NCBI GenBank assembly: GCA_021234155.1
Contig: JAJEKV010000054.1
Location: 1,054,001-1,118,000 of the forward strand
From: Isoetes taiwanensis
Lineage: Eukaryota; Streptophyta; Lycopodiopsida; Isoetales; Isoetaceae
Direction: 5' to 3'
Length of the DNA: 64,000 bases
Shown: positions 5,511 to 52,692 of the stretch, piece after piece
How positions within the stretch are numbered: the first letter of the stretch is position 1
Layout of the letters: each line of letters starts with the position of its first letter
Position numbers and translations under genes: made by a program
The notes under the pieces: generated by a model
What the model was told of the DNA's origin: nothing
Seen by the model: the letters and a program-made list of their open reading frames with translations, nothing else
Database searches by the model: none

Positions 5511-6289
5511 ATGCGAAAGGAATTGATGTCAATGAAATCAAATGACAGGGTTACATTTGTGTATGACATGTTGTGCAACAACATGGAGGGCAAAAGAGTT
5601 CATGGGCTAGCCTTGTAGGACATGACTGTTTGTGACAGAGCTTGGTACCTTGGTCTTGGGATTTCGAAGTTGGAATATCTTAAATGGAAGGCGCATATTC
5701 TATAAGGTGCTAGCAAAGCCGAGCATGTCAACCCAGGCACAATAAAGGCTTGTGCATCGACCTTAGCCCCGGAGGTTGTTTCCTCTATGTTTGTCAAGAA
5801 GAATTGTGAATCCCTACCTCATTGTAGCAGGAGAATGAAGATGACATCCAAGAAAACGTGAGGAAGTTGCCGGCAATGTTTACGAAGGCCTCCATTCTTG
5901 AGGAGGTCAAGGCAGAAGTGATGGGACTGACAGACAAGGTGGTCTCTCTTACAGGATTTCATAAAACATGGAGGCGTAGCTTCAAGGATGTGAGTATAGC
6001 AAAGAAGATTGCATTCTCCAAGTGTGACACATGCGAGATAATATGTAGCATTATAACAGGGGGTTTTTTTTGTGATTTTATACGGCTTTTGGCATGGTTT
6101 TCATATGATTTCATGGGCGTATTGCGCGAGGCATACTAATCAGTATATCTAGAGTGCACTCCCCATTTTTATTGTCTAAATTTCATATCCCCAATGGTTT
6201 ACCCCCTTTTATTTTATTTTTTTTTTTTTACTTTAGGGTTATTTTAGGGTTCGAGGGCCCAGAGATAGAAGCCGAGCATGGTTTTAGCT

Positions 6290-6933
6290 GGGTGATCCGG
6301 TGGAGCTGGTTCTGGTAGCATGATTTTAGGCTAGGTGATCCCGTTAAGCTTTTTGATTGGCATTCTTATGTGTATTTACTGGAGTGTTTGGAAATTATAG
6401 TGGCGACTGGTACTTCGAGCTCCGTCCACCCATGACAAGGCTGTTACATGCATTTCTGGTTGCATGTTATCATCCGTGGAAGCTGTATTCGCATCTTCAT
6501 CTTCTGATGGCACAGTTCGTGTGTGGGACATGTCAATTCCAATGCAGGCTGGAGGTAATTTTTCTGAAGTGCAGGTGTGCTCTTTGGGCTTGCCCAACTA
6601 AAGGGAATTTTGGGTGATCCGGTGGAGCTGGTTCCGGCAGCATGATTTTAGGCTGGGTGATCCTGTTAAGCTTTTTGATTGGCATTCTTATGTGTATTTA
6701 CTGGGGTGTTTGGAAATTATAGTGGCGACTGGTACTTCGAGCTCCGTCCACCCATGACAAGGCTGTTACATGCATTTCTGGTTGCATATTATCATCCGTG
6801 GAAGCCAGTATTAGCATTTTCATCTTCTCGATGGCACGCGTTAGGTGTGGGACATGTCAATTCCAATGCAGTGGAGGTAATTTTTCCTCGCGGTGTGCTC
6901 TTTGGGCTTGCCCAACTAAAGAGAATTTTCCTT
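6290..6933 (+). repeat. 322-bp tandem duplication including one ELP2 exon
   Basis: Copy 1 is 6290-6611 and copy 2 is 6612-6933, with a constant 322-bp offset between exon starts 6401 and 6723. Each unit also contains short repeats of an AGCATGRTTTTAG...GGTGATCC motif. Confidence 0.8.
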
Positions 6934-7380
6934 GCCTAATAAGGCGACTTGCTCATCATACACTTCACCATATCACCAGCCTTTTAACATTTATTGCACC
7001 TTCTTCATAGGCAAATGCCAGGCATCGATTGGACAAACTATTTCCGTTGGATCAAAAGTCATGGTTGCTGATTCCATGGTGCTTCTTCCCAACAAACTGG
7101 ATATTTTGTTGGCTATGGGGGGTTTGGATAACCAAATTCATCTATACATCAAGACTAGTTCTGAGCATCAATTCGTATCAGCGTGAAAATTAAAAGGTCA
7201 TCAAGGATGGGTTCAGGCTGTTGATTTTTCAGAACCTGTAGTAGAGAATGGAATGCAAGCAATATTTTTTGCAAGTTGTTCTCAACATAAACATATTCTT
7301 CTTTGGAGGATCACCCCGAAGCAAGCTGTATTGAGTAATGACAAAGGGTCTAGTTTGAAGGGATACATTACTGGGCCAAT
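6401..7380 (+). pseudogene. ELP2: Captured fragment of Elongator complex protein 2 (WD40)
   Basis: ELP2 is the WD40 scaffold subunit of Elongator, which modifies wobble uridines of tRNAs. An exon at 6401-6554 lies between TTATAG and GAG/GTAATT and reads WRLVLRAPSTHDKAVTCISG, then ASSSSDGTVRVWDM. A second copy of the exon at 6723-6876 carries a frameshift. A downstream exon starting at 7011 after TTCTTCATAG reads LLAMGGLDNQIHLY, KLKGHQGWVQAVDFS and FASCSQHKHILLWRI, the ELP2 blade order. A stop sits just before KLKGH. Only the central WD40 part is present, so this is a non-functional fragment with retained introns, that is, captured at DNA level. The whole lies inside the mobile element at 6041-8223. 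Confidence 0.75.
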
Positions 7381-7797
7381 GTAACAGACCTAAGCTTGAA
7401 CTCAGGGATTGTCCTATTACTGAGGCTGGAATTGCAGCCACAGTTAGATCGTTACAATCGTTGAGATACATATCGGCCAAAGGCTATGAAGCAAGAAATA
7501 CAACTGATTTTCTTGCAATGGGGCCTTATTGGAACATAGAATACCCCCCGAGTTCTTGTAAAAGTTGTGCATATTCTGAAGTTGAAGTGCTCAAGTATTT
7601 ATGTTCATTTCAGAGCTTATACCCATCCATTTAAGTTGCCTTGCAATTCTATAACACCCTATGCATACTTGTGGAGATGTTTGATTATTCCCCACAACAT
7701 ATGTATCCAAGATGGCATTTTTTAAATATACGACAACACATGTGCCATGGCAAAGCACATGGTTTAAGTGCTCTTCTCGACTATATTGTTTTAGGCA

Positions 7798-7908
7798 AGG
7801 CCTTGAAGGGGCCAAATTTTTTTTAATCTAACACAAACCATTACATCTAATGTTTCCAAGTGTGATATAATGTTTGTTTTTTGCCCCGAAGGGGCAAATT
7901 TTTTTTAA
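7798..7908 (+). other. Two GC hairpin plus T-tract modules
   Basis: GCCCC-GAA-GGGGC at 7883-7895 is followed by AAATTTTTTTT. A weaker form (GGCCTTGAAGGGGCC then AAATTTTTTTT) lies at about 7805-7830. The matching module in the other copy at 52295-52320 is GGGCCC-GAA-GGGCCC plus AAA and T10. The stem bases differ but pairing is kept. Confidence 0.5.
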
Positions 7909-7958
7909 AGTTATACATTACACACCTTAAAATTAAATTCCCCCTTAAACCCCCTTTT

Positions 7959-8223
7959 GTTTGGGTGCATATTCACACGGGGGGTGATGTAGGGCAGCGA
8001 GAGCCCCTATAATTATGTTTTGTACGTACAAAATCAACACCATATAGTATGTTACCTGAAATCTTATAGTATTTTTTAAATCTTGTTATACAGTATCATA
8101 ATTTCTATACATCCATACCCCACAAACGAGGAATTTTGTGTACGGTGTAGATTAAGGAATAAGGGGTGAATATGCCTATCCAACAGCTCTCGATGCCCGG
8201 AGTCACCCCCCGTGTGAATATGC
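7959..8223. repeat. Inverted-repeat (foldback) segment at the element's right end
   Basis: Left arm GCATATTCACACGGGGGG and right arm CCCCCCGTGTGAATATGC enclose about 220 bp. The copy at 52416-52692 is homologous with longer arms. The right arm here is cut flush where the DUF7869-type gene resumes. Confidence 0.75.
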
Positions 8224-9575
8224 CATGGAGATTGTACTCCCACAGGTATCCTCGAGACTATGTTTTTATTATTCATAACAAAATGGACCGGGCAAAAACA
8301 ATGGTTCCAAAGCTGCAATGACCTATGAAGTCCCTTTGGAGATTAGACAAGTCAAAGACTTCATTCATTGGCAGGTGCACTCAATCACGACCACAAAAGG
8401 GGATCCTATGGCAATTTTGCTTTGGATATGTGCGACGACTCAAACTTCCACGTAGGTTCCTTGAATAGTATTTTGAAAAGATTAGAATTGCCTCATGAGT
8501 TTGCAGGAGGCCATCTTGCATTGCCTGGTGCATCAGTCCCAAAATGGGCAAAGGCCATGCATGACACCACGACGCTTGCATCCAAGTTGTGACTATCCAA
8601 TAAGAGCATTCCCGTCGACCTGCCTCTATCTGAGAGGCCTTCAATAAAGCCGCTCACTCGAACACTGAGGTTGCAACTAGACAACGCATCTAGATAAAAC
8701 AAGAATAGGTATGTATTCTCATATCTTTCATACCTTGTAGATGTCGGTGTATTTAAAGAGATTGAGTTAGGTTTTATGATGTCTGGCCATACACACGAGG
8801 ATATCGATGCTTTATTTGGTAACTTTTCATTTTTCCTGAGGAAAGCTGAAGTGCTAATCATGCCTGAGTTGCTATATGAATTCCACACGTGCAACCTTAA
8901 TGTGTATATGCCATATCTTGTTGACAAGTTTCCAAATTGGAAGGGTTTCGTAAGGGCGACGAAGAAGATAATGAGTGGTTTTGGAAATACGAAGATGTTA
9001 TATAGCACTCAAGACCTCGGTGAAAGACCTTGGTCAGCTCCAAAACAATGTCCATAAGCATATCCTACATTGGATTGCATGCTCGATAAATGATCGGGGC
9101 AATCTAGAGACGGCCCAATATTCGGCACAATTTACGTCGACAATTGAGTATTGGATGGGGCTCTTGCAGAGAATGGATAACATCACTATCACTGAAGGTG
9201 CTTACGAGGACTTCTAGCTGCGCACTAGGCAAGAACGAGCCGACATACCTGATGTGATAGCAGCGATGGAGCCAATTGCAAGGCATCACTCCTGCCTATG
9301 TTGGTTTGTGGATGGATAAACTCACACTGGAATTCAATCCATTCACGGATTTGAAGAAGGGCATATTTATAATAGCGTGACCTGATGATGTCTTGTGTTC
9401 GATGTGGATAAGGTATGCTACCGAAGAGCCCTAAATGAATGATAAGAAAGACAACCTTGAGACTATCCCAGTGACCTGGTGAGAGCCTGTACCTGTGAGG
9501 AACCAGATATACCAAGCCAATTACGTCAATTGTTGGAAGAAGAGATGGAGGACGATGGCTTCTAGTGACTGCATT

Positions 9576-10739
9576 GAGATAATGTCTTCCAGTCTCACCA
9601 GACATATGGGCAGAAGCGTGAACAGTAGTTGAGGCAACTACAGTTGAAATAGAAACTGGAACAAGTAACTGAGAAGAGGAGAGTGATGGAGCTACTGTCT
9701 CAATTGAGATGGCCCCACTCGTACCATTAGAAGACATGTTGGGCAATACTAAAGGATTGGGGTGCACCGAAGAAAATAAATTCTCATGAGCCGAAAAAGC
9801 ACCCTCGCAAGCCATTTTGTGTGCATCATTTACATTTATTCTGGGAGAATCTGCAACATATTCTTTCCCAATTCCACCATATACTATGTAAGAACTACCA
9901 GACAAATGTTTTGGCGGGCTGTGACTGGATCTTGTCATCTCCACCAAAAGGGGGAGGGGAAGTTACAGAGCTGAGTAGTCCTTCCCAATAGGCCAATCTC
10001 TAAAAAGATCAAGCATCACTAGATGGAGCACTCAAAGAGCTTTCCAACAAGCTCAAACATGCCCAAAACTGCCATCAGATGCAGAAGTTATGGCTAAAAG
10101 AAAACTGCAGCGAAACCCTAGCACCGCCAAAAGAGGGCTAGGACTGTCAAGTGGATTCTTTCTACCAAAACAGAAGAAACACCATACACCAACGGAAAGG
10201 ACATTCGACAAGCTTTCCCGAGTTATGAGCAAGAAGGCCATCAATTTTCAATTGTAGGTGGCTTTCTATATGACTTGAGACTTTTAAGTTATAACTTTAT
10301 AATAGCCATTATTAAGACATGCTCATTTCTGTAAAATGGAGCTGTACATTTTGTATCTATGTAACCCTTCAGCATGTTAATATATGATCTACAAAATTTA
10401 TCAGATTATCTTTTGTACTTATCTTTGAACCAATGTTTTGGTCTACTTGTAAATAATATTGTGCTTTAGAATGCAATTGGGATGGCAAATAAGATTGTAT
10501 TTTAGAATGCAATTAGGATGTAAATAAGACTATGCAATGTAAATGAGATGTACAACATTTAGCGAAGTAAAAAAGAATTGCATTGAATTGGTTATATTTT
10601 TACAATGATAATGGTTAAACTTCCACAAGTTTGCATTCTCCATTCTTTCTTCTTCTTTTCTTTGCACCCTTTGCACTTTTTTCTGTTTGTGATTTGGAGA
10701 ACTGCATCTTGTGCAAAAATTGCAATATTTTGTGGTAAG
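9576..10739. other. No recognised gene
   Basis: A long minus-strand open frame (9225-9947) runs partly antisense to the C-terminal block of the DUF7869-type pseudogene. Its unique Ser/Val-rich part (about 9590-9947) has no motif I recognise. A plus-strand stretch near 10090-10250 (MAKRKLQRNPSTAKRGLGLS) looks coding in composition but is unidentified. Confidence 0.35.
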
Positions 10740-12890: not shown

Positions 12891-12892
12891 GG

Positions 12893-18197: not shown

Positions 18198-19930
18198 ATA
18201 AGCAACAAAAATTCGAAGAAAACGATCCGTTGGAGAAGGGCATTCCGTTAAATACTAAAAACTGAAGGGCATTGTGTAAAAGTTAAAATTCTACGAGAAG
18301 ATGTACGTTGACCAAGGGCATTTGGTAAAATAATAAAAACTCAGGGGCATTTGGTGAAATTCAGCAAAACATAAGGGCATTTTGTAGTTTTTCCCTTAAA
18401 CAAATTAATGAAATGCCCTTGCACAACATAACGTTAATTGTTTACAAATGTGAATGCTATAAAATTCAGTAATACCCTTAAGTTTTAGCATAACAAAGCA
18501 AATGCATAATGAGTCTTCAAAACATACACAAATCTCACATAATGAGTCTTCAAGTACAGTAATCACCATGGACACATTGCCAATTAGATAGGTGCTCTGC
18601 ATGTCCGTGAATTATGGTCCCTTCCCTTGCATCTACCACAACGATGAATTTCCTTCACTTCTTCTTCACCCCTACGAATCCTCTTCGTCCTTGGGCGCCC
18701 TGGAGGTCGCCTTGTTGCTGGAGGCAACATCGTACCTAGAACAGTAGGAACAATAATAGGGTGCATGATCTCCCTATAGGTTATAGAGTAGGAAGTGAGT
18801 AGAAAAGCTTGGTGTGCATAGCTCTGGACACGCTCATTCCTATATAGTATTGCACATGCTGCATGGGCACAAGGAATACCCTCTTGTTGCCATTCACTGC
18901 AAGAACACGTTCTCATCCTCAAATCAACAATCCTAGATTTTGATGACAATATCTCATACTCGATTCGATGTTTTGCCCATACTGGTATGAGCGTCCACGG
19001 TCACATGCTTTCTTCACATCACGCTCAGCACGAGGAGTTAATGCCAAATGTGCATACTGGCCTGCCTCCATTATGAATGAACCTGCTTCACGCCGGCGGT
19101 CTAGGAACCATGTCATTAGCTTATGTCGGATTAACTCGAACATAGCTAGTATAGGCAACTCCCTAGGTTCACGCAACCAAGAATTCAGAGATTCTGCAAT
19201 ATTAGAGGTTAAATGACCATACCTCTGTCCCTTGAATTTTGAGTTTGCCCAATGAACAGGATCAGCTGCAGCAAGAATCCAAATGGTAGCTTGAGCATTA
19301 GCGGCCCGCATTTCACTGATAACCTCATCATATCCCTCTACAGTATTGGCACGTGCTGCATTCCATAGCAAATTAACAAGTGATGTACTCTTGAAGACCC
19401 TCCTAAAATTGTCAGCCAGATGACGCAAACAATAAGCATGAGGAACTCCAGGCCCAAAAATAAGCTCAACGCCCTCCACCAAACCTTTCTGCCTGTCTGA
19501 AATGAAGGTAACTTGTTGCATATGATGCATACAATTCTTTAAGTTTTGAAGGAACCATACCCAATTATCATCATTTTCAGCATTGACTACGGCAAAAGCA
19601 ATTGGAAATAATCCATCATTTCCATCTATTGCTGTGGCTGTTAGAAGTATACCAAGATACCGTCCCTTCAAATGTGTGCCATCCAAACCTACTACTGGTC
19701 TGCAAAAAGCGAAGCCCTTCAAACTAGCATTATAAGCAACAAAAATTCGAAGAAAACGATCCGTTGGAGAAGGGCATTCCGTTAAATACTAAAAACTGAA
19801 GGGCATTGTGTAAAAGTTAAAATTCTACGAGAAGATGTACGTTGACCAAGGGCATTTGGTAAAATAATAAAAACTCAGGGGCATTTGGTGAAATTCAGCA
19901 AAACATAAGGGCATTTTGTAGTTTTTCCCT
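18198..19930 (-). mobile_element. Truncated Mutator-like element between same-orientation 199-bp repeats
   Basis: The 199-bp segments 18198-18396 and 19732-19930 are almost identical and in the same orientation, with a constant offset of 1534. Reading the right copy on the minus strand from its outer end gives AGGGAAAAACTACAAAATGC, typical of a MULE terminus, followed by several AAATGCCC units. The repeat also contains the first recognisable codons of the transposase. The block sits in an AGAAT microsatellite that resumes at 19931. A proper inverted partner terminus is not evident; a weak candidate follows 18396. Confidence 0.65.
18584..19770 (-). pseudogene. MuDR-family transposase, N-terminally deleted
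   Basis: The reading starts inside the right terminal repeat (TDRFLRIFVAYNASLKGF, at about 19770) and continues FCRPVVGLDGTHLKGR (first catalytic D), TFISDRQKGL (second D) and YGHLTSNIAESLNSWL (catalytic E). A frameshift near 18955 shifts it to YEILSSKSRIVDLRMR. Then comes a SWIM zinc finger (CSCSEWQQEGIPCAHA), a proline/arginine linker (ATRRPPGRPRTKRIRR) and a terminal zinc knuckle (CGRCKGRDHNSRTC). The usual N-terminal DNA-binding region is missing: coding joins directly to terminal-repeat sequence, evidence of an internal deletion. With N-terminal loss and a frameshift it is not expected to be active. Confidence 0.85.
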
Positions 19931-20100
19931 AGAATAAAATAGATAGAGTAGAAAAGTGCCAATGTGGCAACTCAAGGAGTGCCAGGTCGTGCTGCTTTCC
20001 ATTCGAAGCTCGGCTATGGAGATAAACATTTTTTTGCAGCCGTCATTCTCGTGTTTGCTGCCATGTGTTGTGGCTATATTATGATTCTGCCCGAGGTTAG

Positions 20101-22179
20101 ATGGCTACTGGATGGACATTCCATTTGCAACAGCATGCGCAATTCGGTAGTGCAGACTCAAACATTAAATTCTATGGCGGAGACAACAAAAGAAATGGCG
20201 ATTATAATTTCTCCGCAAAATTGCGGAAAAGCGATCACGAGGCTACCTATGCTTCTCTTCTGAGGCAACTTAGTGACCCAACAGCTCTTGCAGCAGGTAG
20301 AATTGTTCATGTAAAAATTCTTAAAATCAAGTTAAATGACAGCAGATATCTGGGAAATCTTTTAGTGGATATGTATGGTAAATGCGATGCCCTAGAGGAT
20401 GCAAGGGAAGTTTTTGATAAAATGCGTAAGCCAAATGTATATTCTTGGACTATTATGGTTGCAGCATATGCTCATAATGGTTACTTAGAGGATGCCGGTC
20501 TACTTTTTAACAAAATGCCACGCCGCAATTTGGTTGTTTGGAATGCCATGATGTGTGCATATTCTCAGTATGGCTATGACTTTGAAGCACTTCAACTTTT
20601 CCAGCAGATGCAGCTGACAGGCATGAGACCAGACAAGGTCACATTCATCACTATTCTTTCTGTATGTGCTAGAAAAGGCGACCTTACCAAAGGAAAAGAA
20701 GTGCATGAAAGCATCAAAAAGCACAGCCTTCATTCGGAGGTTATAGTGGGAAATGCACTTTTAAACATGTATATCAAGTGTGGTGAAGTGGAAGATGCTT
20801 GGGCTGCTTTTAACCACATGTCCCTACGTGATGTAGCTTCTTGGAATGCTATGATTTCAGGAGGAGGTGTCTTACTGGAACACACTCTGCAGTTCTTGGA
20901 GAAAATGCAGTTAGATGGTCAGACCCCAAATGAAATTACATTTATCAGTATTCTTAGCTTACATAATCACCCAAAAGCTTTAGTTAAGGGAATGTATCTG
21001 CATGCCATTATTAGAGGTAGTAAATTCAGAATAGATGTTGCTGTAAACAATGCACTTATCACTATGTATGGCAAATGTGGTGGCATGAAAGCAGCGGCTG
21101 ATGTATTTGATAAAATGCCCGATCGCAATTTAATTAGCTGGAATGCCATAATTGTTGTATATGCACAATACAGACATAATCAAGAAACTTTAATGCTTTT
21201 CCAGGAAATGCAGTTTCAAGGTCTGGTGCCAGATAGGTTCACCATAGCAAGCCTCTTTTCTGTGTTTGCTAACCAAGCAGATGTGCAACCCCAAATGTTT
21301 GAGAACCCCTGTGGACAAGGAAGCATGGAAACAAGTAATGGGGACAAAGTCTATAACAGACTTGGCCTGCTTGATGGCATTCGTAGGCTGTTCGAAGATA
21401 CACAAGAGAAAGATGTGGTGTTGTGGAATGCAATGACTGTAATGTATGCTCAGCATGGATACTTTAAGGAGGCCCTTCAATTACTTAAGCAGATGGAGCT
21501 AGAAAATGTGATACCAGATGCAACTGTCTGTGTTACTATACTTTCTACTTATGCGAGCCAGGCTCTCTTAGCTCAAGGCAAAAGGATACATTGCTGCCTC
21601 TTGCAGAATGATTCCAGATCTAGCATAATTGTTAGTACTGCACTTGTAAATCTGTATGGAAAATTTGGTAACTTGTGGGGTGCGCAAAAAGTATTTGATG
21701 AGATGGCAAAACGAAATGTTGTTTCTTGGACTGCCCTTATCTCAGCATATGGCCAACATGGTGTCGGTAACCAAGCACTTAAGCTCTTCAATGAAATGCA
21801 GGAAGAAGGTGTGATGCCAGATAAGGTGAGTATACTAACCTTAATGTCTGCATGTAGCCATGCTGGACTGATTCACGAGGGTATTTATTTGTTTATATCA
21901 ATGGATGACATCCATGGCCTTCTACCGAGCCAAGAGCATTACCATTGTCTTATTGACCTGCTTGGAAGGGCAGGATGGCTAGATGAAGCTGAGAATCTAA
22001 TTGCTAGCACACAACTCAAGCCCATGAATACAACATGGATGACCTTGCTCAGTGCCTGCAACACTTTTGTTGATGTTGAGAAAGGAAATCGTGCAGCAGA
22101 AAGTCTGTTTGATTTGGATCCAAATAATGCCATACCATATATATTGCTGGCAAATCTCTATGCCACTGCTAAAGGATAG
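20101..22179 (+). CDS. PLS-class pentatricopeptide repeat protein, 692 aa
   Basis: PLS-type PPR proteins are plant organelle RNA-binding factors, mostly for editing or processing. The single uninterrupted frame starts at ATG 20101. Tandem P/L/S motifs run from about residue 55 to the C-terminus, for example LVDMYGKCDALEDAREVFDK, NVYSWTIMVAAYAHNGYLED, FNKMPRRNLVVWNAMMCAYS and FDEMAKRNVVSWTALISAYG. The last part reads LIDLLGRAGWLDEAENLI and DLDPNNAIPYILLANLYATA, the start of an E-type motif. It stops after AKG, so E2/E+ and DYW or H-type tails are absent, and downstream frames do not restore them. Such genes are typically intronless. No targeting signal can be judged by eye. It lies just downstream of a MULE end. 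It is the best candidate for an intact host gene here, possibly C-terminally truncated. Confidence 0.85.
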   Translation: MATGWTFHLQQHAQFGSADSNIKFYGGDNKRNGDYNFSAKLRKSDHEATYASLLRQLSDPTALAAGRIVHVKILKIKLNDSRYLGNLLVDMYGKCDALEDAREVFDKMRKPNVYSWTIMVAAYAHNGYLEDAGLLFNKMPRRNLVVWNAMMCAYSQYGYDFEALQLFQQMQLTGMRPDKVTFITILSVCARKGDLTKGKEVHESIKKHSLHSEVIVGNALLNMYIKCGEVEDAWAAFNHMSLRDVASWNAMISGGGVLLEHTLQFLEKMQLDGQTPNEITFISILSLHNHPKALVKGMYLHAIIRGSKFRIDVAVNNALITMYGKCGGMKAAADVFDKMPDRNLISWNAIIVVYAQYRHNQETLMLFQEMQFQGLVPDRFTIASLFSVFANQADVQPQMFENPCGQGSMETSNGDKVYNRLGLLDGIRRLFEDTQEKDVVLWNAMTVMYAQHGYFKEALQLLKQMELENVIPDATVCVTILSTYASQALLAQGKRIHCCLLQNDSRSSIIVSTALVNLYGKFGNLWGAQKVFDEMAKRNVVSWTALISAYGQHGVGNQALKLFNEMQEEGVMPDKVSILTLMSACSHAGLIHEGIYLFISMDDIHGLLPSQEHYHCLIDLLGRAGWLDEAENLIASTQLKPMNTTWMTLLSACNTFVDVEKGNRAAESLFDLDPNNAIPYILLANLYATAKG

Positions 22180-23045: not shown

Positions 23046-24129
23046 AAGTGCAGGAGATGTGTGTATGAATGTTGGTAACTAGGAGTCAAGAAATTGCACG
23101 ACTGGAATATCTACATCCCCAAAGCACCCAGGAGGCTTGTATAAACCGAGGAGGCAGCTTGTCCAGATGTCAGCCACATCACCGGAAGTAGAAGACCTCT
23201 GGAAAATTGCCTTTACCTCAGTGTATGGCAAACTATTTTAAATGAATAGGAAAGTTTCCTTCTAGGTGTAGGATGAACAGGCAGCTGCAAATTTGGATGG
23301 GATTTATCCTAGTAATAAAATTTTGGTTTGGAAAATTTCTTTCAAATCTCAAAAAAGAAAAACTGAAACAAATTTATAGCTTACAAAGAAAAAAGTTCAT
23401 TTCCAACAACATTCTATTAAATTCCAACGAAATTAACATAAACAAGTCATGTTCCTGCATGTTTAGCCTGTGTACTCTCTGCCTGATGTACGTGCTGCGT
23501 GTTTTCATGCTCTCCTTTATCAATCCTCCAATTCAAGGTACATCGTCTCCCAACGTGATTTTTTGTGGCCATGCAACGCTTCTTTGCTACTGGAACCTTT
23601 GGCATATTAAAGGGGAAAACAAGAGGATGAAAACAAAAGAAATAATGCAAGTAGAAAATAGATTCAATGTCCACTTTTTACCGCCTCAATGCCTCGATTT
23701 GGCAATAGACCGGAACCAACTCTTCTACACCTGCATGTTTTGAAGAATAGAAGAATGGATATGGAATCCATCCACGGTGATCAATTTAGGCAATCCAGAT
23801 GAAAAGAAAAACTATATAAACAACAATATCTGAGATAGATAGATACAAAAAACAGAAGAAAAAAGAATGTGACTACTATATCATTTGATTGAGTAAAGCA
23901 TACCTCATCAAAAAGCAGTTGTAAGATGCAAGGATCAGAGTAGTGGATTGCAAGAAGTGCAGGAAATGCTTGTTATCACATTTAAGGGTGTGAACTGGAC
24001 TTGAACCCACTACCTCTAGAGTGGTAGCTGTGCATCCTAACTGAAAAGGCCACGATGATTTGGATGAAACCAAATCACACGCTCCAGAACTGATGGTTAA
24101 TCGTCATATAAATGTGACACTTGTCTACA
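23046..24129. other. No gene; contains a tRNA-like sequence
   Basis: An open frame of 156 codons at 23273-23743 has no recognisable motif. Apart from the tRNA-like stretch at 23984-24063 nothing stands out. Confidence 0.4.
23984..24063 (-). repeat. tRNA-like / SINE-head sequence
   Basis: On the minus strand there is an A-box-like CAGTTAGGATG, a 5-bp stem CTACC...GGTAG with an 8-base loop, and a perfect B-box-like GGGTTCAAGTCC. The acceptor and T-stem do not pair properly, so this is not a functional tRNA gene. A tRNA-derived SINE head is the likely reading. Confidence 0.4.
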
Positions 24130-24719
24130 ATGGAACCAGAGAAATTTCTATGCGTCATTCATGACAAGATGGATCAACAAAAAACCTATTTGCCCCAGTT
24201 TAGGGCTATACCAAAGTCTGTTGCAAGGTCTTTCCCATTGCAAATATCACTAGCTGGATTCATAACTCATGGCCAGGGAGCAGTGCATCACGGTCATTTT
24301 ACATTAGAATTATGGAGTGATGGTCCAAACTTCCATGTTGGTAGCATTGCAAAAGCATTGCGCGATTTGGAACATGATTTTAATGGAGATGTTCATTCTT
24401 GTAAGCCATTGCAATATCTCTTCAAGGCATTGCCTGACATTGGTCCCATGAAACTAAAGGATTTGACCATAGGAAGGATGAATGGGACAGCACCTTCAAT
24501 TCATGTAAATCCAATACCAGGGCGCCGACTACCCAAGAAGCTACTCTTGCAACTTGACAATTGTGCTGGCCAGAATAAAAAAGGATACTTGTTTGCATAC
24601 TTGTCGTATCTTACATGGGTTGGAGTGTTTGAAATGGTCTATGTTGGTTACTTGATGCCTGGCCACACACGCGAAGACATTGATGCAATGTTTGGGCATT
24701 ATAGGATCAAATTGCAGGA
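24130..24719 (+). pseudogene. DUF7869-type transposon gene, copy 2, 5' part
   Basis: An open frame from ATG 24130 reads PEKFLCVIHDKMDQQKTYLP, LWSDGPNFHVGSIAKALRDL, LPKKLLLQLDNCAGQNKKGY and VGYLMPGHTREDIDAMFGHY, then RIKLQE. There it meets an A-run and the inserted LINE. The frame resumes 37.2 kb away at 61917 (LQ.KSDVTTYPRLLELF). The motifs D (SDGPNFH), DN (QLDNCAGQNK) and GHTxEDID are those of the DUF7869 family of plant and animal mobile-element proteins. The part upstream of PEKF is not seen here, although copy 1 retains it. It would be intact in this part but for the insertion. Confidence 0.75.
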
Positions 24720-24901
24720 AAAAAAAAAAAAAAAAATTGTGGAGCGCCTATTTTCTTGAAAATGGCGGTTTTTTTCAGTTTCAACCCAATTCTTGGAAAA
24801 TTTGCTTGAGATCGGCCTATCCTGCTTCGAATTGATCGAATTCTTGCGCCAATTGCCTGCTACCCCTGTAGAGGGTTAGCATTGGGATGAATTAACTTCT
24901 C

Positions 24902-39070: not shown

Positions 39071-42000
39071 TAAAATGACAATAATCGAGCAAACCAATAC
39101 ACCATGCCAAATTTTATTGATAAATTGCTAACTGTTATAAAAATAATCTGCTAACGAAGGTGAACCCACTTACAGAACTGATTTACACAGGGAAAGTTTT
39201 CGGTGAAGCTTGAGAGTTGCGGCAGCGATCTGAGTCCTTACAAGGTTGTCACGATCTGAGTTTCTACTGCAAGATCCAGGTTCGACTTCAAATCCCCGCT
39301 ATCAAAGATCCGGAGGTTAGACTCGGCTCAAAAACTAGCCTTAAGAAACGAATCGAAGCTGGGTCTCTATACAAGCACAGACAATCATGAAAACGGCCCA
39401 GCCAAAAGGCCCTCATACTAAATATCAAGGCAAAAAACTCGAAATCAATATAAACAAGAATCAGATGAGGGTTTGCAACCATCGATATGCCGAACCACAG
39501 ATCGCATCTGCAAAAAAAAATAGAATAATAAAGGCATATCATCCGGCATGCCCTGTGCAGCAGAAAGATGCGTTCCAACCATCGATTCATGCCCTATGCT
39601 CTGGCAAGATCAGAAAGACAATAGATTAAAAGCTATCCACAAATATGTTGCATGGCCTACAAGGATTCTACAAACCAAAGAAGTGGATTCACGCGAAACC
39701 CTCATCGCTAAGAACCCATTCAAAATAGAAACCAAGAAAACCCAAATCTAGATTGCACAAAAAATCTGGCCGAAAAACTATTCACTTAAGGTTTTATGAG
39801 AACTAGCAGCAGCTGATAGCAATGGCCGAATCCAAGCCGGAAGAAGAGCCGTACTGCAGAGCTTCCTGAAAAAGCTAAAAGAAACTTGGAGAGAAATGGA
39901 AAAGATGCGACATCCAACTTAGCAAGCACAGAAATCCAACATCCCAGGCAGAGAAATAAAAAAGGAACATTATCATCAAACCGCTTGCAGTATCGCCAAA
40001 CAGCAAAGGCGAGATCTCTAGGCGAGATCTCTTAGCAGCTTCTCTAAGAAAGATTAAACATAGTAGGAATAGTCTTTAAACTGATAGGATAGAGAAGAAG
40101 GAGAAAATAGCTCAAGGGAACGCCGATGATATGACAATGAAGAGAGGCTGAATAAATAGGAGTGACAAAGGAACGTCCCCATCCAAGGAATGTCGGTTCT
40201 ATTGCTGTCGCAATAGAACCGTGGCATTCTTTCGTAGAGGTAAGGCTGCACTTGCTTTGTTTTTAGTTATTTATACCATTTATATTTAGTTGAGGCTCTA
40301 ATTTATTCACTAATCTCTGTTTTACAGTAGACCTGCTTTGCCCACAATAATTTTGGTTTATTGGATTTTGTTTGTTCCTCTCTTTCGCTTATATTGACCA
40401 ATCTAAAGACACTAATTTGGACTGTTGCACATTTTATAGAGCCGGGAACACAAAGCGAGGCCGAATGTAGTACTTCAAGTAAGTGCAAAGGCCCCGATTT
40501 ATGTTCATTTACATTCCAACGTGTTGTTTTCTACATTATTCTTGCATTATCTCTTCTATATTTCTAGTCTTAGCCTCTTGAAAACAGGAAATCTCTATTT
40601 GGCTTTATTATGTTGGGGATTTTGGCAATTAGAGTATAGATATGGCCAGTGATGACTTTAAGGTGTGAAACTTCGTAAAGTTGCTATATTTTGCCATTTT
40701 CTAAAATATGGATTCGATGGTTTACTAGGATGCGTACGCTAAAGAACTTCATAAAATCGCCAAAATTTGATAATATTGCATCCCAATTATAGTAAATTCG
40801 CCAAATTAATGGACATTTTACAGTAAAAACCTCAATTTTATGGTAAAACATCCAATTCTACTAAATTCGTTTCTATAAAAATGTTGGAAAATTAGGAAAC
40901 AATCGCCACCATTTCTATAGTTTAGAAGCAGCTAGAGGATGATAAAGTCATCACTGGATATGGCTCCAACACAAGGGACTTAAGGGCTTTTTTGGATGAA
41001 TCAAAGGCTGGAGGAAATTGGTACTGTGAACCGATGTTAAATGCAAGTTTTGAGCATGATGGGAGGCGCATTTGCATTGCTGGCACCTTTAGGCACGTCT
41101 CTTGTCGTAGAATATGTGAGAGTGGCCAGCAGTTCTCGAATCTCCAATGCTCATTTTGTGCTTCAATACCAAAAGAAAGTGATTTTCGTATGAGAGTTTA
41201 TAGACAAGAACAAAGAAAAGTTAGTAGAGGTCTAAGACGTACAAATCAGCACATAAGAGTGGATTACCTAACTAATACGGAGCTGAAAGATATCGCTAAA
41301 GATTCAAGGGCCGAAAATAGACAGTTAAGAAAAGATTTGATGTTTTGTAAAAGAAAAAATGTGGCTTTATCAGTGAAGGTGAGAACAATTAGGGATTCCT
41401 TGTGTGAATCCATGAATCGTACGGATGTGAAAAAGTTTTGTAGAGACATTGTTGAGGCCCATACACGAGGAAAATTTGAAGGTAAGACAGCTCTATGGAA
41501 CTTCCTTACAGATGTTGCCTAAAACATAATTAGGCCAGGTTATAAGAGAAGATAAAGACCACAAAAGACCTATTTGAGACAATCAAAATTTGGGGCGGAC
41601 AAAGAATGCATAACTTTTTATCCATTAACTTTTCAGGCCCTAGTTTGTCTACCACGCTGCGATCGACGAGGAAGAATTTTGTTTTCAAATGTGGCATAAG
41701 GGAAGAAATGTTTGCCTTTCTAGGAGGTGTGTATTCCAGCCATATGACACGAATTGGCTTGCCACTTGGATCAGTACCATCCATTGTGGCAGAGGATGAG
41801 ACTGTTATAAAGAGAGCAGTATAATGGATTGCAAGAGATGACACCTTGATTGGATTTTGTGGTTTGAAAGAAGGGCATACTTGTGAAATGAATTTTGTAG
41901 TTCATGTTGGTAGTGGAGAGGTTGGATACACAACCATAATGGATGCATTTGAGTTAAACACCATTGCACACTTTGCACGAGTTCTAATTGTGAATCCTTT

Positions 42001-44161
42001 GCATCCGCGCCTGCCTAGACTTGTCTTGTCTATCCAACTTACATGCAATAAGTTCAACCATGACGAGGTAAGAATCCAATGGCAAAAGGTTCAAGCCTTT
42101 TGGGATTCACACGTGAGGCATGTATTGGGACCATTAATCGGTCATAGCTCTGATGGAGATGCACGTCGTAGGGCATGTATGCTTGAAGACTACACGTCCT
42201 TGAAGCAAGTGAATGGAAGATATGCCATACCTTGGGAGGGTTGGGTGTTTACTGCAGCCATAAGAGATGATGGAAGCATTTGTGGACTTCATGATCAAGA
42301 TTTCATCCATAATGGCAAGAAACTAATCAATCCGATGGACAATGCTTCAAGAAGATTGTATCTAGGAAATGAGTATGTGACATTGAATGATGTATGGCAT
42401 GTCTTCAACATGTTTCAAGGGGAACATGGACTCCAATTGGGAGATGTCGAAAGGAAAGATAGGCAAAATTGGAGGGCTGCTCAAAGGATAGCTTCACGAA
42501 AGGTTCAGGGATGTTTGCAAAGATTAAGAGATCCAAGTACTTCTAAACCTATGAGAACTTTAGGGACTGAAATATACTTGCATGTTGTTTCCCACTACAT
42601 TGACATATTTTTATCACCACATTTGGATCTTCAGGCACGTGTGAAAGCGGCTTCAACGGTCTCTTTTTTCTTTAGGTATGTTTGAACTGCAATTGAACTT
42701 ATGCTTAATAGTCTTTCCTTCTCATATTCTAATTGTAGGTTATGGAGACTATGGATAATCAATCATGAGACACATTCTTTGACCAAGAACTTCATATCCC
42801 GCGAGACCTTTCTTGATATTCAGCTCTCATGCCACTTTGTAGTTTTGCTAGTAAGGTACTTCAATGAAACATGCACAGGTATGGCTGTCCCATTGCATTG
42901 TACAGGGTCAGATTGTTGTGAGAATTTTTTCTCCAAAGTGGGCGGCATGGTTAGGAATGAAAGATCCTATACAGGGGCTGATCTTCTAGAAACATGTAAT
43001 GCTTTGAATAGGGTGGCCGAATTCCAAGCTCTAGGTGACTTGTTATTCCCTGCTGCACATATAAAACAAGAGAACATTTGGCAAGTGCTGGAAAGAAAGG
43101 TAGATAATGCAGGAAATGAAATCAGGGCTGATCTATGTGATCTAAGTGAAGTAAGTACCAATGACAAGATTGTGGATGCCTTAAAGGACAGTTTCAAGTA
43201 TGCTCAAGCATTATGTGCTCAAGTAGGTATTACATGTGATAAAGAAGGCGCAGAAACATGGTGGGAAACACCATGGAAACATGAAGATTATTTTCATCGT
43301 GACTACTTCAAGCAGTTAGACACTACACAAATTGAAGATGAATCTGATGTTGTTGAGATTGAAGAAGATAATACAAGTATAAGAGACAATAGTGCAAGTG
43401 AATCCCATGACATTGTGGCTGAGATGGAGCTTAGGCACACGTTTGAAGCCATGCTTGATAAGACTGAAAACTCACATTCCCAAGTAGATAGAACCGTGAA
43501 GGTAGACGGTAAACTAGTATGCAAGGCCACTTTAGTGAGCCAGCTTAATGGCAATCCTTGGTTGTCAAAAGATAGATTGACAAAAGTTAAACATCATGCT
43601 TTTCTTGATGCAAATTCGAAGGTAGTAAATGCAGCAACTTCACTTGGAATAGGTTCTGATTGTGCAGTTTATTTTGAGAATGATGAGGAGTTAAGCAAAA
43701 GAATGCGTGGTGGTGGAAGAGAGCAGCAGAAGAGCTTGGTTTGGTACTTGGGACGTGTGCTTTCTATTCGAAAAAAGATTGGAAGAGCTTGGAAGGAAAG
43801 TAGAGAAAGCATTGACCTCATTGATGGGCCCTCATACTTGGTGGAGTTGAATTTGGCATGGTACAATGAACACAAGACGGGAAGGAGGACATGGTTTACC
43901 TATGACAACTTCGATAATCAAGTAATATCGCTTGATTCCGTCATCTCATTGGCTTGTTTGACATATAAGCCTGAAAATGGTAGATACTTTCTTGATGAGA
44001 ATGATAGAAGACAATTTAATGGCTTTCTAAATGATCAAATGAAAGGTATCTAGCATCTAATTAATATGTTTGTATATTTCATTGTGTTTGGATATTGTAG
44101 TCTAATAATTTGTGTTTCTCTTTCTTGCATTTCAGGGAACAAAGGGAAGCAGAAGGTGTGA

Positions 44162-46100: not shown

Positions 46101-46123
46101 TCAACGTGACCAAGGTCCATGGT

Positions 46124-46174: not shown

Positions 46175-46377
46175 GGTACAAAGTCGGAAAGGGATTATAT
46201 AATTTGGCACAATCAATCGTAAATCTACGGATAGGGTCTATATTGTATGTTAGTTCGAAAAACCATATGGTATGGGTTTTTCTACTCCAAAAAGCCGTAT
46301 ACAGGGGTTTTTCTATGACCCCTCGAACGCAGATGCCATCTGTCCATATATAGAGGTGCACCCCCCGGGGCAATTCC

Positions 46378-47724: not shown

Positions 47725-47771
47725 TGCTTCCCCTTATTATCTTCTTCTTTTATTGCCTTCCTTTTCATATC

Positions 47772-48405
47772 ATGAAGATAATGACTTGGAATCTCAGGGG
47801 CATTAAAGGGCCTGCAAAGAGGAGAAGGACAATTTCTCAGATCAGGGATTATCAAGCCGATATTATTTTATTGCAAGAGCTTAGACTCCCAAATTTTGAA
47901 TGCTCTAATCTTGCAAACTGGATTGGTCCTGGTTTTTCTTCCTTATGGATTGATGATACTTTGACCTCGGGTTTTTTCTTCCTTATGGATTGATGCTACT
48001 TATCATTATTTGGAGAAATATTTACCATAGCATGGTTTACAACAGTCCTTGCAAAAGTTGGCAGGCTGTCATCTTTAATTATGATGGATCTCAATTTGGT
48101 ATTATAAACATTTATGCCTCTACAATATCTAAAGAAAGAGAAAAGCTTTGGCTTGACATCAGATCTTGGCTCCTCAGTCATAATTCTATATCTTGGATTT
48201 TAGCTGGAGACTTCAACAACACTCCATCCTGGGACCTTAAGCTGTCTATGACAGAGAAATTGAATTGGGAAAATCTTCTAGACACCTTTTTATTTACCCA
48301 TATTCCCTCTTCTACTGCAAAATATACTTGGTCCAACAAGCAAAAGGGCAATTCCAGAGTCTTTTGTGCTCTGGATAGATTTTACATTAACAACTCCAGC
48401 CATGA
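47772..48405 (+). pseudogene. LINE ORF2, endonuclease domain
   Basis: Starts MKIMTWNLRGIKGPAKRRRT (the N of WNLRG is a conserved APE-type endonuclease residue), then ADIILLQELRL (catalytic E). A local duplication of about 40 bp at 47939-47996 (CTTCCTTATGGATTGATG twice) creates a stop. The domain continues FGIINIYASTI, WILAGDFNNTPSW (catalytic D and N) and RVFCALDRFYIN. It breaks at the 13-bp duplication ACTCCAGCCATGA (48393-48405) and resumes at 57985. Confidence 0.8.
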
Positions 48406-49162
48406 GGACTTTAGAGCTTGCCTCAGGAATCCTGGGCTATGATCTAATTAATCTCAGTGAGGAAGACTTCTTTATGCCAGAAAACGGAGAATCTTTGTCC
48501 TCCTTTGGAGGATCTGGAAGGGCAGGAACTCCTTCATCTTTAATTATAAAATTATTCCACCGGAAGGAATAATTAAATAGCTTCAATATGATGTTAGGTG
48601 GATTCAAGAGATTAATGGTTAATTCTATGATTGCTGGTGCGCAAACTCAAATGGAGGAAGATGGATCTAAACACGAACAATGAATGGATAAAGATATTCG
48701 GGGCAGCCAAAGTGATGGAGCATATGGAACAGTGCGGATGCGGATGCTGTTGCGATCAGAATTACAATATCAGAAGAGAATTAATTTGCCAGGCAAAAGA
48801 TAGCAGGGACCGGTTCAACATGGCTAAAGCAAAATCATGTATGTGCATCTACTGCACTTTTCATGAGACGACAAAAGGAAAGGCAAGAAAGATCAAGAAT
48901 TTCAATCTGAAAACTTACCACTGAATGCTCTCTCTTTCGAAAATTATGACAAGGACACAGACTCTATTTAAACTTAGCAAGGTTTTTATCAGTTTTTTTA
49001 TGACACCATGAACAAGTAAAGGTTGATCCCTGATATGCACTCAGGTTTTTTGGATCACCTATCTATTTTAGGGTTCCTCCTCCCTTGAAAAAGGAGTTCC
49101 TGTAAAAGTTTTCACTTATATATATATATAGAAGCCTTCAATAAAAAAAAAAAAAAAAAAAA
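48406..49162 (+). mobile_element. 5'-truncated LINE with poly(A), body
   Basis: Inserted in the larger LINE's ORF2 with 13-bp duplications ACTCCAGCCATGA at 48393-48405 and 57972-57984. Its only recognisable coding is the LINE C-terminal region in a shifted frame: IFVLLWRIWKGRNSFIFNYK, then IIPPEGIIK. The tail A20 is at 49143-49162. A second A-run at 57947-57970 precedes the right duplication, so the tail appears to have been opened by the segment 49163-57946. Confidence 0.75.
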
Positions 49163-50429
49163 GTCCGTTTAGATACTAAACTAGACTTTATGCCCTATTA
49201 ATCATTTGATACATAGGACATCCAATTTGCAGCCCCAAATACAGTTAGGTGTCATCTGTATTCAGGCCTTGAACTGAGCCTTTTAGACCATCATGAATAA
49301 ATATTGTTTATAAAGACGCTTGAGTACTTCAGCTATTGATATTATGAACATGTGCCAGCAGAACAAGAAATATAGTTTTAACTATGTGTAAGTTAAGCAT
49401 GTCAAATAATAAAAACAAGTACAATTGAATTGTAGTGCAAATAGCTCTGCATTTTATCGCTGTCAAAATATGGAAAACCCTGTTCCTCTGTTCAAAAAGA
49501 CAAGAAATATACTAATATTTGACCAAATATATCCGTATTTCAACATAGTAAACATGGTAATTATGCCTCTTACTATTTATTGATTCAACTTGAACTCAGG
49601 TCTAGCTATTAGCCACTAGTATGAATATGTAGCATAATAACAGGGGGTTTTTTTTGTATTTTTGTACGATTTTTCCAATGGTTTTTATATGATTTGATGG
49701 GCGTATTGCACAAGGCCTACTAATTAGTATATCTAGAGTGCGCATTGTATTTGCATAGGCTTGAATGAATTTTAATGCCTCTTTTCAATAGTGTAGACCC
49801 ATATATCATATATTTCTCCGTTAAGTTCTATTTTTCGTATTACATTTTATTTTGCTCGACATGCAAAGCTCGAGCAGCTCATTTTAGGGTTCTTGTTAAC
49901 TCCAAAATTAGGTCTCTAGGTTATGGTTTTTGCTGTAAGGGATCTCGATCTCGAAAATCAAAGCAAAATCTGCCGAGTTTGTGGTGATTCAGTGCAGCTT
50001 TATTATAATCCCACAACTCAAATCTTCGGCTTGATTGATTAACCCGTTGGAACATAGATTTGGCGTTAGAAAAAAGAGGTATAAAAGCTAATCCGACAGA
50101 ATGGAGAAGGTCTCTAGGTTTTGTTTGTGCCGTTTGGTTATTGGAGCTCTGGACAAAACACAGGCATTCAATTCAGCTGGAGATTTCGTCCTTGTTATAC
50201 GGTGAACTAGCTTCCACAAAGGTATTCAATTTTTGCATTTCTTATGCCAGGCCATTCCGCCATATTCCAGATGGATTTGGACGAGTCCAAACAGTTGCAG
50301 TTGGATTTGGGCTGAGGGTGCTGGCAGTAAGAGCCGTGATCACAAAGCGTGTCGGTTTTGCATCTGTTTTTGTAAGCTGCCATGTTCGAATGCTGAAACC
50401 CTAAAGAGTCAATCATACGCACTTAGCAG

Positions 50430-50826
50430 AAGTGAAAGGGGGTCAGAACTGGGTACATGCCAACGGATCTAGAATGTGGCTTCCAGGTGGTGGTACTCAC
50501 TTCAAACGTGGCGCATCTGACTATATCCAGAGGTATTCCTCTGCAAATGTGTTTGATAAGACTTGAGTTTAGAACATGCTATGGAAATTGTAGGGAATTC
50601 ATGCAGTGACTGATCCTGTTGGCCAGCTTCATGATACAGGCTCGGAAGAATGACAACTGATGGAAATGGGGACTTTTTAACAGCCAAAAAAACCAAATAC
50701 AGTTCGCTCTAGAGCGTGGCATTCCTGCAATGGTTGCAGTTTTGGGAACAAAGCGGTTGCCTTATCCCAGCCAATCATTTGATATTGTGCATTGTTCACG
50801 TTGTCGAGTTGATTGGCATGAAGATG
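50430..50826 (+). pseudogene. Captured exons of a PMT-type methyltransferase
   Basis: The PMT family (Methyltransf_29; QUASIMODO-like Golgi proteins linked to pectin methylation) is plant-specific. Exon 50430-50532 (acceptor ACTTAGCAG, donor AG/GTATTC) encodes [20 protein letters not shown], then [13 protein letters not shown], the FPGGGTxFxxGAxxYI motif of the SAM-binding core. Exon 50684-50826 (acceptor TTTTTAACAG, donor ATG/GTAAGG) encodes [20 protein letters not shown], then [20 protein letters not shown] and DWHEDG. Introns are kept, so capture was at DNA level. N- and C-terminal domains are missing, so no active enzyme is expected. The frames look undamaged, suggesting recent capture. 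Confidence 0.8.
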
Positions 50827-52280
50827 GTAAGGTTCAAGATGTGATTTATGGTCTTGTTTGGAACTGTTTTTGGTCTCCTCTTAGCATTTGCACGTGCATA
50901 CATCTGTGAAATGGAAAGAGAGAATTACTTCCTTGTTTCTCTGTTATGGACGTCTTATAAAAGGGACATCTTATGGACATCTCCCCTGCTGTGCCTGGCA
51001 TCTATCAGAGGTCCATGTAGTTTGCTGTCCCAGTAGTGTAAATCTTGAATTTTGTCATATTGAGATCCTGAGGCAGCTCCAAGTTCCATTTGTTTCATGC
51101 AGCCTAACTGAAAGATGCATGGCTGAATCATTCTGCAAATGATATGACAGCTCCTTGGTAATAGTCAAACCATCAGATTGAAGTTGGCATGATGGGATTG
51201 CAAAAGGAAGTTCATTTTTTTTAAGACTTAACATTTTGTGCTTTTCAAGGGATGCACCGATGGCATTCAAAAGTGGGTTTTCCATTATATGTACGAAGGA
51301 GAGATGAAACCATCCAGGGGTTCTACTAGAGGATTGATTCTTCCAGAATTGGAGGACTGCATTTTCTTTTCGTTTGAGTTCCATTCCTGCTTAAAGCACC
51401 TCAGCATACCCCACGTTGAGGGCGAACGAACTTTACTTGGTAACTTCAGTTGCCCAAGAGCTATGCTTAGTGGCTTTGTAGAGAGATTTATAGCCTACGA
51501 CAATTAAAGAAAGCACAGGTCTTCATAGAGATTCTCACCATGAGAGGCTGGTGGGTAAGGACAGGTTGTTTTGGAGTATTATAATTTTCTCCTTACTTTC
51601 CTGATTGGAGAGTACCACTTATAAATCCTCCATGTAAGTCAGTAGGAGAATGCTGAGAGGAGGTTACGCATTCCCAAATACAGTTGCAGGTGTCTTGAAT
51701 GAAGTTGTATTAGGTTTTTATAGAATAAAACATCGCCAGTAGCATCATGGTGCTGCAAAATGGCATTATAATGTAGGGGCAGTAAAAGAGTTCTGCACTT
51801 GACTTTGTAACACTTCTTTTGATTTATTTTCTTTGCTTGTTTGCTCTTGTTTTCTCTTTCTTTAGCACTTTAGCCTCGTGCAGTGTTGAGAATAATGACC
51901 AAAGTCAGCATGGCCAATGTGTGGCTTTTCTTGTCATCTAACAGGCTTGGAAAAGAAAATCAAAATAAGAAACTTTGATACATAGCCTAGAATTCGGGAT
52001 CTTTTTTGAGATTTGGCAAAGTTGGCTCGTATTTGTTAACCTAGAATCCAGATTTTTTTTCGAGATTCAGCAAAGTTGGTTCTTATTTGTTGAAGCTTAT
52101 TCTTCCGTTCTCACTTATTTCATTTACTTCATGTAGTAGAATATTTGCTATGCTCGTATTTTCTACCACCTTATTGTAATTTTGGTAAGCTCCCATGATC
52201 GAATGCAGATCGAATGCAGAAACCATAAAGTAGCCCTAATATCCGGCTACATGTTTTGCATGTTTTATGTTTTTATGTAT
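50827..52280. other. Remainder of captured or element sequence
   Basis: No further PMT exon could be found. An open frame at 51238-51507 has no known motif. Confidence 0.4.
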
Positions 52281-52415
52281 GTTTGCTTTTTTTAGGGCCC
52301 GAAGGGCCCAAATTTTTTTTTTAGTACAACAACCAACATATAACTATCATTAACATGAATTAACACAACCATTGGGTCTAACACATTTAAATTAAAATCC
52401 CCCTTAAACCCCCTT

Positions 52416-52692
52416 TGGTTTGGGTGCATATTCACACGGGGGGTGACGTAGGGCAGCGAGAGCCCTTATAATTATGTTTTGCACGTATAAATTCCACACC
52501 ATATTGTATTTTAGTTGAAATCTTATAGTATTTTGCAAATCTTGTTATACAGTATAGCAAATTTTGTACTTGCATACCCCACAAACGAGGAATTTTACGT
52601 ACGGTGTAGATTAAGGAATAAGGGGTGAATATGCCTATCCAATAGCTCTCGTTGCCCGGAGTCACCCCCCGTGTGAATATGCACCCAAACCA
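52416..52692. repeat. Foldback segment with arms of about 52 bp
   Basis: TGGTTTGGGTGCATATTCAC at 52416 is mirrored by GTGAATATGCACCCAAACCA ending at 52692. With about four mismatches the arms extend to about 52 bp (..GGGCANCGAGAGC). Homologous to 7959-8223. Confidence 0.85.

Follow-up and report, generated by a model that had tools for sequence, protein, structure and literature searches.

Two related elements on the plus strand, copy 1 (6040-8223) and copy 2 (49624-52692), are the subject of the present analysis. They are located in a stretch of 64,000 nucleotides of the lycophyte Isoetes taiwanensis (contig JAJEKV010000054.1, positions 1,054,001 to 1,118,000; hereafter called the window). 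Both are best explained as non-autonomous copies of a single high-copy family of DNA transposons, which carries fragments of host genes between an exact left end and a ragged right end folding back on itself. The original prediction, made from the letters of the window, had proposed such a gene-capturing family; the family is real and large, so that the interpretation is supported as a whole, while the underlying observation is confirmed in part. We hold it to be probable, albeit with considerable reserve, that the family moves by replicative single-strand transposition in which the element's own strand is copied from a 3' end that has snapped back, palindromic intermediates flip the loop of the right end and a Replitron-type Rep serves as engine.

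Paired ends across the genome

The left ends of copy 1 and copy 2 share 118 bp with 87.3% identity (6040-6157 and 49624-49741; E 2e-37) and their right ends 302 bp with 90.7% identity (7922-8223 and 52381-52682; E 1e-119), the likeness of the latter reaching further upstream if its weaker part is counted. Between the two interiors no similarity is found at E 1e-3. AATATG is present at both ends of the window copies. Common ends, unrelated interiors and the AATATG motif had all been recognised before and stand as described.

Searching the genome (1,658,258,908 bases in 1110 pieces) with the right end yielded 2738 first-look candidates, 40 of which were scored and match with at least 96% each; the left end yielded 2999, with at least 97% for each of the 40 scored. 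Thirty right-end loci and 20 larger regions were read. A left end in correct orientation accompanies nine of the ten queried right ends for which at least 8 kb of the body side is covered (the miss is L008/L037), and the pairing anticipated from the window copies is thus found in the genome. A paired left end is absent from 8 of the 20 larger regions, among which the body side is covered only for L037. Including neighbours and the two window copies, 16 paired elements are available, 15 of them 1.9-3.1 kb in length. The exception, L040, measures 6.8 kb and was rejected as an autonomous element since its extra length holds, by eye, reading frames resembling those of long interspersed nuclear elements (LINEs).

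At L052 (C962:1262050-1262900) and L046 (around 9404), elements are joined head to tail with no host DNA between them, the right arm of one adjoining the left end of the next in the same orientation. Such junctions would be expected from rolling-circle replication; an element inserting at the end of another would look alike. Separately, by the coordinates of its matches to copy 1, C228:97376-100550 contains a copy-1-type element to which another partial body and another inverted loop are directly joined in tandem. Open reading frames (ORFs) of at least 95 amino acids within 1.5 kb of 29 right ends contain a single match to an HUH-like pattern (L021, minus strand), which we take for chance. A scan with viral-contig patterns produced no match, nor was any viral gene found.

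An exact left end

In 15 of the 16 paired elements the left end starts with AATAT(G/C)TAGCAT, L033 having T as its first base. The terminus of copy 1 reads AATATGTAGCAT..., and the conserved core of the left end closes with TCTAGAGTGC, 3' of a small hairpin. Outside this end the flanks of the 16 elements are unrelated and the flanking base is variable; poly(A) is seen at the exact end of none of them. A reading of the ends as terminal inverted repeats (TIRs), pairing GCATAATAACAGGGGG on the left with GCATATTCACACGGGGG on the right, looks good by eye and was discarded as being at chance level when tested: over the outer 60 bp of each end, the inverted match between left and right is no better than chance (p 0.38 for copy 1 and 0.06 for copy 2).

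A ragged right end which appears to be copied from itself

A complete right end is composed of a 38-nt imperfect stem enclosing a 181-nt loop (179 matched in many copies), followed by outer arms. The foldback is confined to the right end, as the original prediction had it, with arms of 38 nt in copy 1 and 48 nt in copy 2. The inner stem arm of copy 1 (38 nt, 7967-8004) is followed by the 181-nt loop in + orientation (8005-8185) and the outer stem arm (8186-8223), whose extension is 0 bp. Copy 2 shows an inner arm made up of the 38-nt stem and 10 nt pairing with a short extension (52416-52463), the loop of 181 nt (52464-52644) and an outer arm with a 10-bp extension (52645-52692). Upstream of the foldback, a hairpin followed by a T tract is present in both (GCCCCGAAGGGGC, 7883-7895, in copy 1; GGGCCCGAAGGGCCC, 52295-52309, in copy 2), which in copy 1 lies near the position where the copied arm of other copies usually stops.

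The arm extension past GCATATTC/GAATATGC was determined in 29 copies, L024 and L025 being left out (probably one-base indels in an arm). It amounts to 0-16 bp in six, 41 bp in one, 89-107 bp in 19 and 211-229 bp in three copies, and the usual stop immediately precedes the T tract with its GGGCCCGAAGGGCCC hairpin. Three further elements (L033b, L039 and L049b) end within the loop. As the right end of most sampled copies lies about 100 bp past AATATGC, both window copies look truncated. Related copies which have left end and cargo in common differ in the length of the right end.

In the 23 copies with an extension of at least 40 bp, the two arms disagree at 14 of 2560 positions of the extension and at 107 of 874 positions of the 38-nt stem, each of the 29 measured copies having 4-6 stem mismatches. 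Per 85 bp of extension, the median number of differences between copies is 3, compared with a mean of 0.4 within copies. Distinct copy-specific variants (27 copies; L017, whose arms are indel-shifted, was omitted) occur 17 times in both arms and 7 times in one arm of the extension. The corresponding counts for the stem, taken over its outer 22 nt, are 0 and 5 (Fisher p 0.007 versus the extension). Since the arms are alike in the extension and not in the stem, the former appears to have been rewritten within each copy, the latter not. Judged by these sequence comparisons, the contrast between stem and extension seems to be the trace expected of a 3' end priming on the stem.

Both orientations of the loop

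Relative to the body, the loop is oriented + in 16 and - in 8 of the 29 copies, with five left unassigned. When the bodies adjoining the right ends were grouped by similarities of at least 300 bp (five ambiguous loci entered with both sides), groups of 7, 7, 6, 3 and 2 resulted, and four of the five contain both orientations. The most direct example is provided by copy 2 and L031, which are 96.0% identical over 2860 aligned positions; their loops are 100% identical in reverse complement and 33% identical when compared directly. Similarly, the loop region of copy 1 matches C228 and C14 in reverse only, and C158 and C1 directly. If a palindromic intermediate were read from the opposite strand, the loop would be inverted without further assumptions; arm conversion is the main rival.

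Gene cargo and its fusion

The interior of copy 1 comprises a WD40-repeat coding block (6425-6529; WD40 3.1e-9) which we interpret as the part of ELP2 preceding an intron, a further ELP2 coding block (7034-7351) with Elongator complex protein 2 as best PDB match (3e-15), and a COI1 coding fragment (7383-7556) for which 3ogk (3.4e-9) is the only PDB match up to E 0.1. The ELP2 cargo contains an internal tandem duplication (6289-6929; 322 bp, 92%). In copy 2, Pfam identifies two coding blocks of a PMT methyltransferase (Methyltransf_29; E 1.6e-11 and 1.2e-23) at 50405-50542 (profile 62-107) and 50682-50828 (profile 150-198), the second ending at a GTAAGG splice-donor-like site. The ELP2 and PMT fragments noticed earlier are hence both real, COI1 having been overlooked. 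Non-coding, intron-like spacers are retained in the cargo, including between the ELP2 coding blocks. Ten reading frames were also taken from other elements; Pfam matches exist for five of them (PPR, Methyltransf_29, RCC1, Na_sulph_symp and DEAD, the last below its cut-off), and the remaining five have none up to E 0.05. Throughout the family, interiors differ between cargo groups.

With the whole of copy 1 as genome query (40 of 5952 candidates scored), C158 turns out to be an end-to-end relative (95%), and ELP2 and COI1 occur together also at C941, C228, C14 and C1. Nine places match the COI1 side only and start at query position 1352-1353, a tenth, C1090, matching in two pieces; 11 places match the ELP2 side without COI1 and end at 1339-1352; for 7 of these, the listed matches include a left end close by on that contig. 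Because the COI1-only matches start about where the ELP2-only matches stop, copy 1 most likely goes back to two cargo lineages fused at about 7391/7392. In the body group of two mentioned above, copy 1 has ELP2 in common with L017 and COI1 not. The ELP2 piece alone as query gives 18 matches of at least 92%, including that of the window.

For copy 2 (40 of 7483 candidates scored) a full-length relative is present at C1095:1202771-1205834 (94%, end to end). Others are found at C36 (96%) and C1109 (93%, to 2821), and further ones (81-88%) at C913, C910 and C1095:1191204. To judge from these related copies of copy 1 and copy 2 at other loci, cargo once formed moves with the ends, which is in line with the Pack-type behaviour ascribed to the family at the outset.

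Insertion sites and flanks

Copy 2 resides in one unit of a direct duplication of about 2.1 kb (49161-54305 and 55863-57953; 98-99% identity) near LINE-type reading frames; a reverse-transcriptase-like ORF, recognised by eye, is located close by at 58181-59758. The second unit, repeat unit B (55863-57953, plus strand), represents the empty counterpart of the copy 2 site with the junction at about 56326/56327. On the two sides of this junction the filled unit (49161-49624 and 52695-54305) is 98.9% and 97.9% identical to it. The insertion of copy 2 into the filled unit most likely postdates the duplication. The host sequence left of the element ends ...AGTATG(A). On the right, the insertion has taken the place of 8 bp of host sequence: the interval from CACTAGTATGA to ATAAAATC is occupied by CAAAGCAC in the empty unit and by the element plus CACAG in the filled one. 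No target duplication is seen in the filled/empty alignment. AATATG was considered as one and rejected; it lies within the element at both ends and is missing from the empty site.

Copy 1 interrupts a DUF7869-like gene, the coding sequence of which is recognised in the right flank at 8698-9054 (3.1e-21). The flank pieces 5717-6040 and 8226-8697 have no Pfam match up to E 0.01, 8698-9054 being the only one of the pieces tried to match DUF7869. Of the earlier statement that both copies sit cleanly in a reconstructable host sequence, the empty counterpart of copy 2 in repeat unit B stands, while the right junction of copy 2 is not clean and the pieces tried reveal no exact empty site for copy 1. 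A second DUF7869 frame is present at 24118-24756 (1e-25), and the window thus contains two members of this family of genes or transposons.

Two of the 16 elements (L032b and L048) have clear repeats in their flanks, measuring about 26 and 33-40 bp, and weaker ones occur in three (L033, L038 and L039; p 0.017, 0.004 and 0.004 versus 240 swapped pairs). In the other 11 no flank match above chance is observed by a test which covers long matches, ragged right ends possibly hiding duplications of 2-8 bp. The flank match is at chance level at copy 1 (p 0.37), where a candidate 9-bp duplication was rejected accordingly, and there is none at copy 2 (p 0.64).

Proposed snap-back copying and its alternatives

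The following course of events would account for these observations. At the left end, an HUH-type Rep would nick the DNA precisely 5' of AATATG; the single strand displaced from there would next be cut near the second AATATGC, within the outer stem arm. The free 3' end would fold onto the 38-nt inner arm and prime synthesis along its own strand; the new, near-perfect arm mostly reaches some 100 nt further and ends ahead of the T tract and GGGCCC hairpin. The left end would join the target precisely and the right end would be tied in by repair, matching an exact left end, a ragged right end and flanks mostly free of duplication. Longer snap-back copies would give palindromic dimers, from which a restart on the other strand may yield the inverted loop orientations that are observed. 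Template switching from one element to another, or into a gene, would bring in cargo and reshuffle it, a step suggested by the fusion at 7391/7392. The engine would most likely be a Replitron-type Rep, which is the weakest step of this scheme. Put in its widest form, to which we assign somewhat less than an even chance, this describes a eukaryotic transposon moving by half a rolling hairpin: its precise left end would be cut by Rep and its self-primed 3' end repaired in, each cycle would rewrite the arm and could flip the loop, and end-switching would fuse gene fragments and spread them in a lycophyte genome, perhaps to thousands of places.

Several points weigh against snap-back copying. No autonomous copy and no Rep gene was found in the elements read, and no full-length palindromic dimer was seen in the loci read. 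One body group of 7 contains the loop in + orientation only, and in L037 9 kb of body side are devoid of a left end. The 7 unshared distinct variants of the extension reflect either later mutation or a process contrary to the model, and the variants place the copying boundary no finer than -19 to +3 nt of GCATATTC. The long flank duplications of two elements are not predicted by it. As the right ends measured are the best 30 of 2738 candidates, young copies are over-represented. Finally, intramolecular gene conversion could also equalise the arms and invert the loop, and only the contrast between stem and extension opposes it.

This last process is central to the alternative which survives best, although we regard it as unlikely: a DNA transposon possessing fixed, complete inverted arms at its right end, whose arms are homogenised and whose loop is inverted by conversion or recombination after insertion, short ends being deletions. 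Recombination between inverted repeats inverts the intervening segment, and near-identical arms together with both loop orientations are what this alternative would produce. However, the stem is contiguous with the arms and nevertheless retains its 4-6 mismatches in every one of the 29 copies, none of its five distinct variants being shared between arms. Nor do fixed arms agree with extension lengths which are ragged and cluster just before the hairpin and T tract, or with a right-end length varying among related copies that have left end and cargo in common.

Quite unlikely is a variant Helitron (Helitron2/Helentron-like) which would move as a rolling circle by RepHel, with unusual ends and ordinary Helitron capture. 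Gene capture with intron-like spacers, the lack of a filled/empty duplication, the head-to-tail junctions, the right-end hairpin and the small hairpin near the left end are consistent with it. Against it stand the lack of a 5' TC and of a 3' CTRR with a hairpin 10-12 nt before it, and the chance-level inverted match between the ends; moreover, ragged copied arms and a flip-flopping loop do not appear in the available excerpts describing Helitron2/Helentron elements (PMC5148889, PMC4067079).

A retroposon read backwards, the left end being its exact 3' end and the right its variable 5' end with arms formed by fold-back of reverse transcriptase, would explain one exact and one ragged end as well as the duplicated flanks of two elements (about 26 and 33-40 bp). 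We consider it very improbable, given that non-coding stretches between the ELP2 blocks are kept, poly(A) is lacking at the exact end, the empty site of copy 2 reveals no duplication and 11 of 16 elements have no flank match above chance. A Pack-MULE, or another TIR element whose inverted repeats have eroded, for which the Pack-type cargo and CATG(C)GAGAT-like flanks at copy 1 might be cited, is scarcely credible in view of an exact left end without TIR, chance-level inverted and flank matches and no filled/empty duplication.

Other features of the window

A Mutator-like element (MULE) transposase frame (9e-20) is encoded on the minus strand in the 18198-19941 region, beside two 210-bp direct repeats of 98% identity (18198-18407 and 19732-19941). 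The segment 28166-33162, in which two direct repeats of about 0.5 kb (90.5% identical) flank gag- and RNase H-like frames, is probably a long terminal repeat element, as judged by eye. A 692-codon open frame at 20101-22179 resembles a PPR protein by eye, and two adjacent open frames of 286 and 455 codons at 41825-44053 have no Pfam match up to E 0.01.

Comparison with known systems

An autonomous Replitron encodes an HUH (Y1) Rep, and the group is found in green algae as well as in non-seed land plants. Replitrons possess short direct repeats at or near their termini, lack TIRs and have been reported in non-seed plants including lycophytes, according to the available part of PMC10741241. The present family resembles them in its AATATG direct repeat (Replitron repeats measure 5-11 bp), one copy of which forms the left terminus and the other belongs to the outer arm on the right, the right one lying about 100 bp inside the end in most measured copies. 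It further resembles them in lacking TIRs between its ends, both inverted arms being at the right end, in the size of the sampled elements (1.9-3.1 kb in 15 of 16) and in its lycophyte host. Because direct repeats, lack of TIRs, size and host group fit that description, and the second AATATG seems to be close to the point where rewriting begins, we favour Replitron-like chemistry. The family differs in that no Rep gene is seen in the elements read and in that neither gene cargo nor a flip-flopping, self-copied right end figures in the part of the description at hand. Since the copy 2 site lacks a 2-8 bp duplication and gene cargo falls outside that description, we do not class the family as a Replitron; the literature, as far as accessible in excerpts, offered no account of gene capture by Replitrons.

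With canonical Helitrons, the family has in common the capture of gene fragments, a hairpin near the 3' end and the absence of target duplication (available parts of PMC10741241, PMC5148889 and PMC4067079). Canonical Helitrons insert between A and T without duplication; in the present family the copy 2 site is free of duplication and the left flanking base varies among the 16 elements. It departs from them by lacking TC and CTRR and by a ragged, palindromic right end with the loop in both orientations. Hairpins near both ends and non-canonical termini recall Helitron2/Helentron elements as outlined in the accessible parts of PMC5148889 and PMC4067079, whereas no inverted pair common to both ends exceeds chance in the outer 60 bp, the left flanks are not TT or a T-rich site and one end is ragged. 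Pack-MULEs likewise carry host gene fragments (PMC10741241 and PMC13317346, in part); here, however, TIRs above chance and a 7-12 bp duplication in the filled/empty pair are lacking. The ends fit neither canonical Helitrons nor Pack-MULEs, in agreement with the original prediction. The retained non-coding spacers, the exact end without poly(A) and the copy 2 site without duplication also set the family apart from LINEs and short interspersed nuclear elements as retroposons.

Parvoviruses, whose telomeres are hairpins, replicate by a rolling-hairpin mechanism with 3' snap-back priming and flip/flop inversion of the loop. The family appears similar in both of these traits and differs in that they are confined to one of its ends, the left being linear and exact, and in that no viral gene was found. 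Its tail seems to fold on itself, copy and flip, which is known from small hairpin-ended viruses and is not known to have been described for a plant transposon. Our literature search brought up no paper linking rolling hairpins to transposons, and among the papers listed for snap-back priming, for gene capture in ferns and for HUH endonucleases in lycophytes or Isoetes none deals with an element of this kind.

The right end seems to record, copy by copy, a self-primed 3' end; if this is true, the manner in which replicative single-strand transposons finish their 3' ends and pick up DNA becomes testable from sequence. Among the cargo are sequences resembling COI1, a jasmonate receptor, and ELP2 of Elongator, besides a methyltransferase and a transporter. 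Exons and splice sites contained in the copies may interfere with the annotation of genes in this genome. A 2026 review of plant gene capture (PMC13317346) names, in the part available, Helitrons, Pack-MULEs and other MULEs as the DNA transposons concerned; to these the present family adds another type of end, with thousands of first-look candidate ends in a lycophyte genome and visible steps of cargo fusion.

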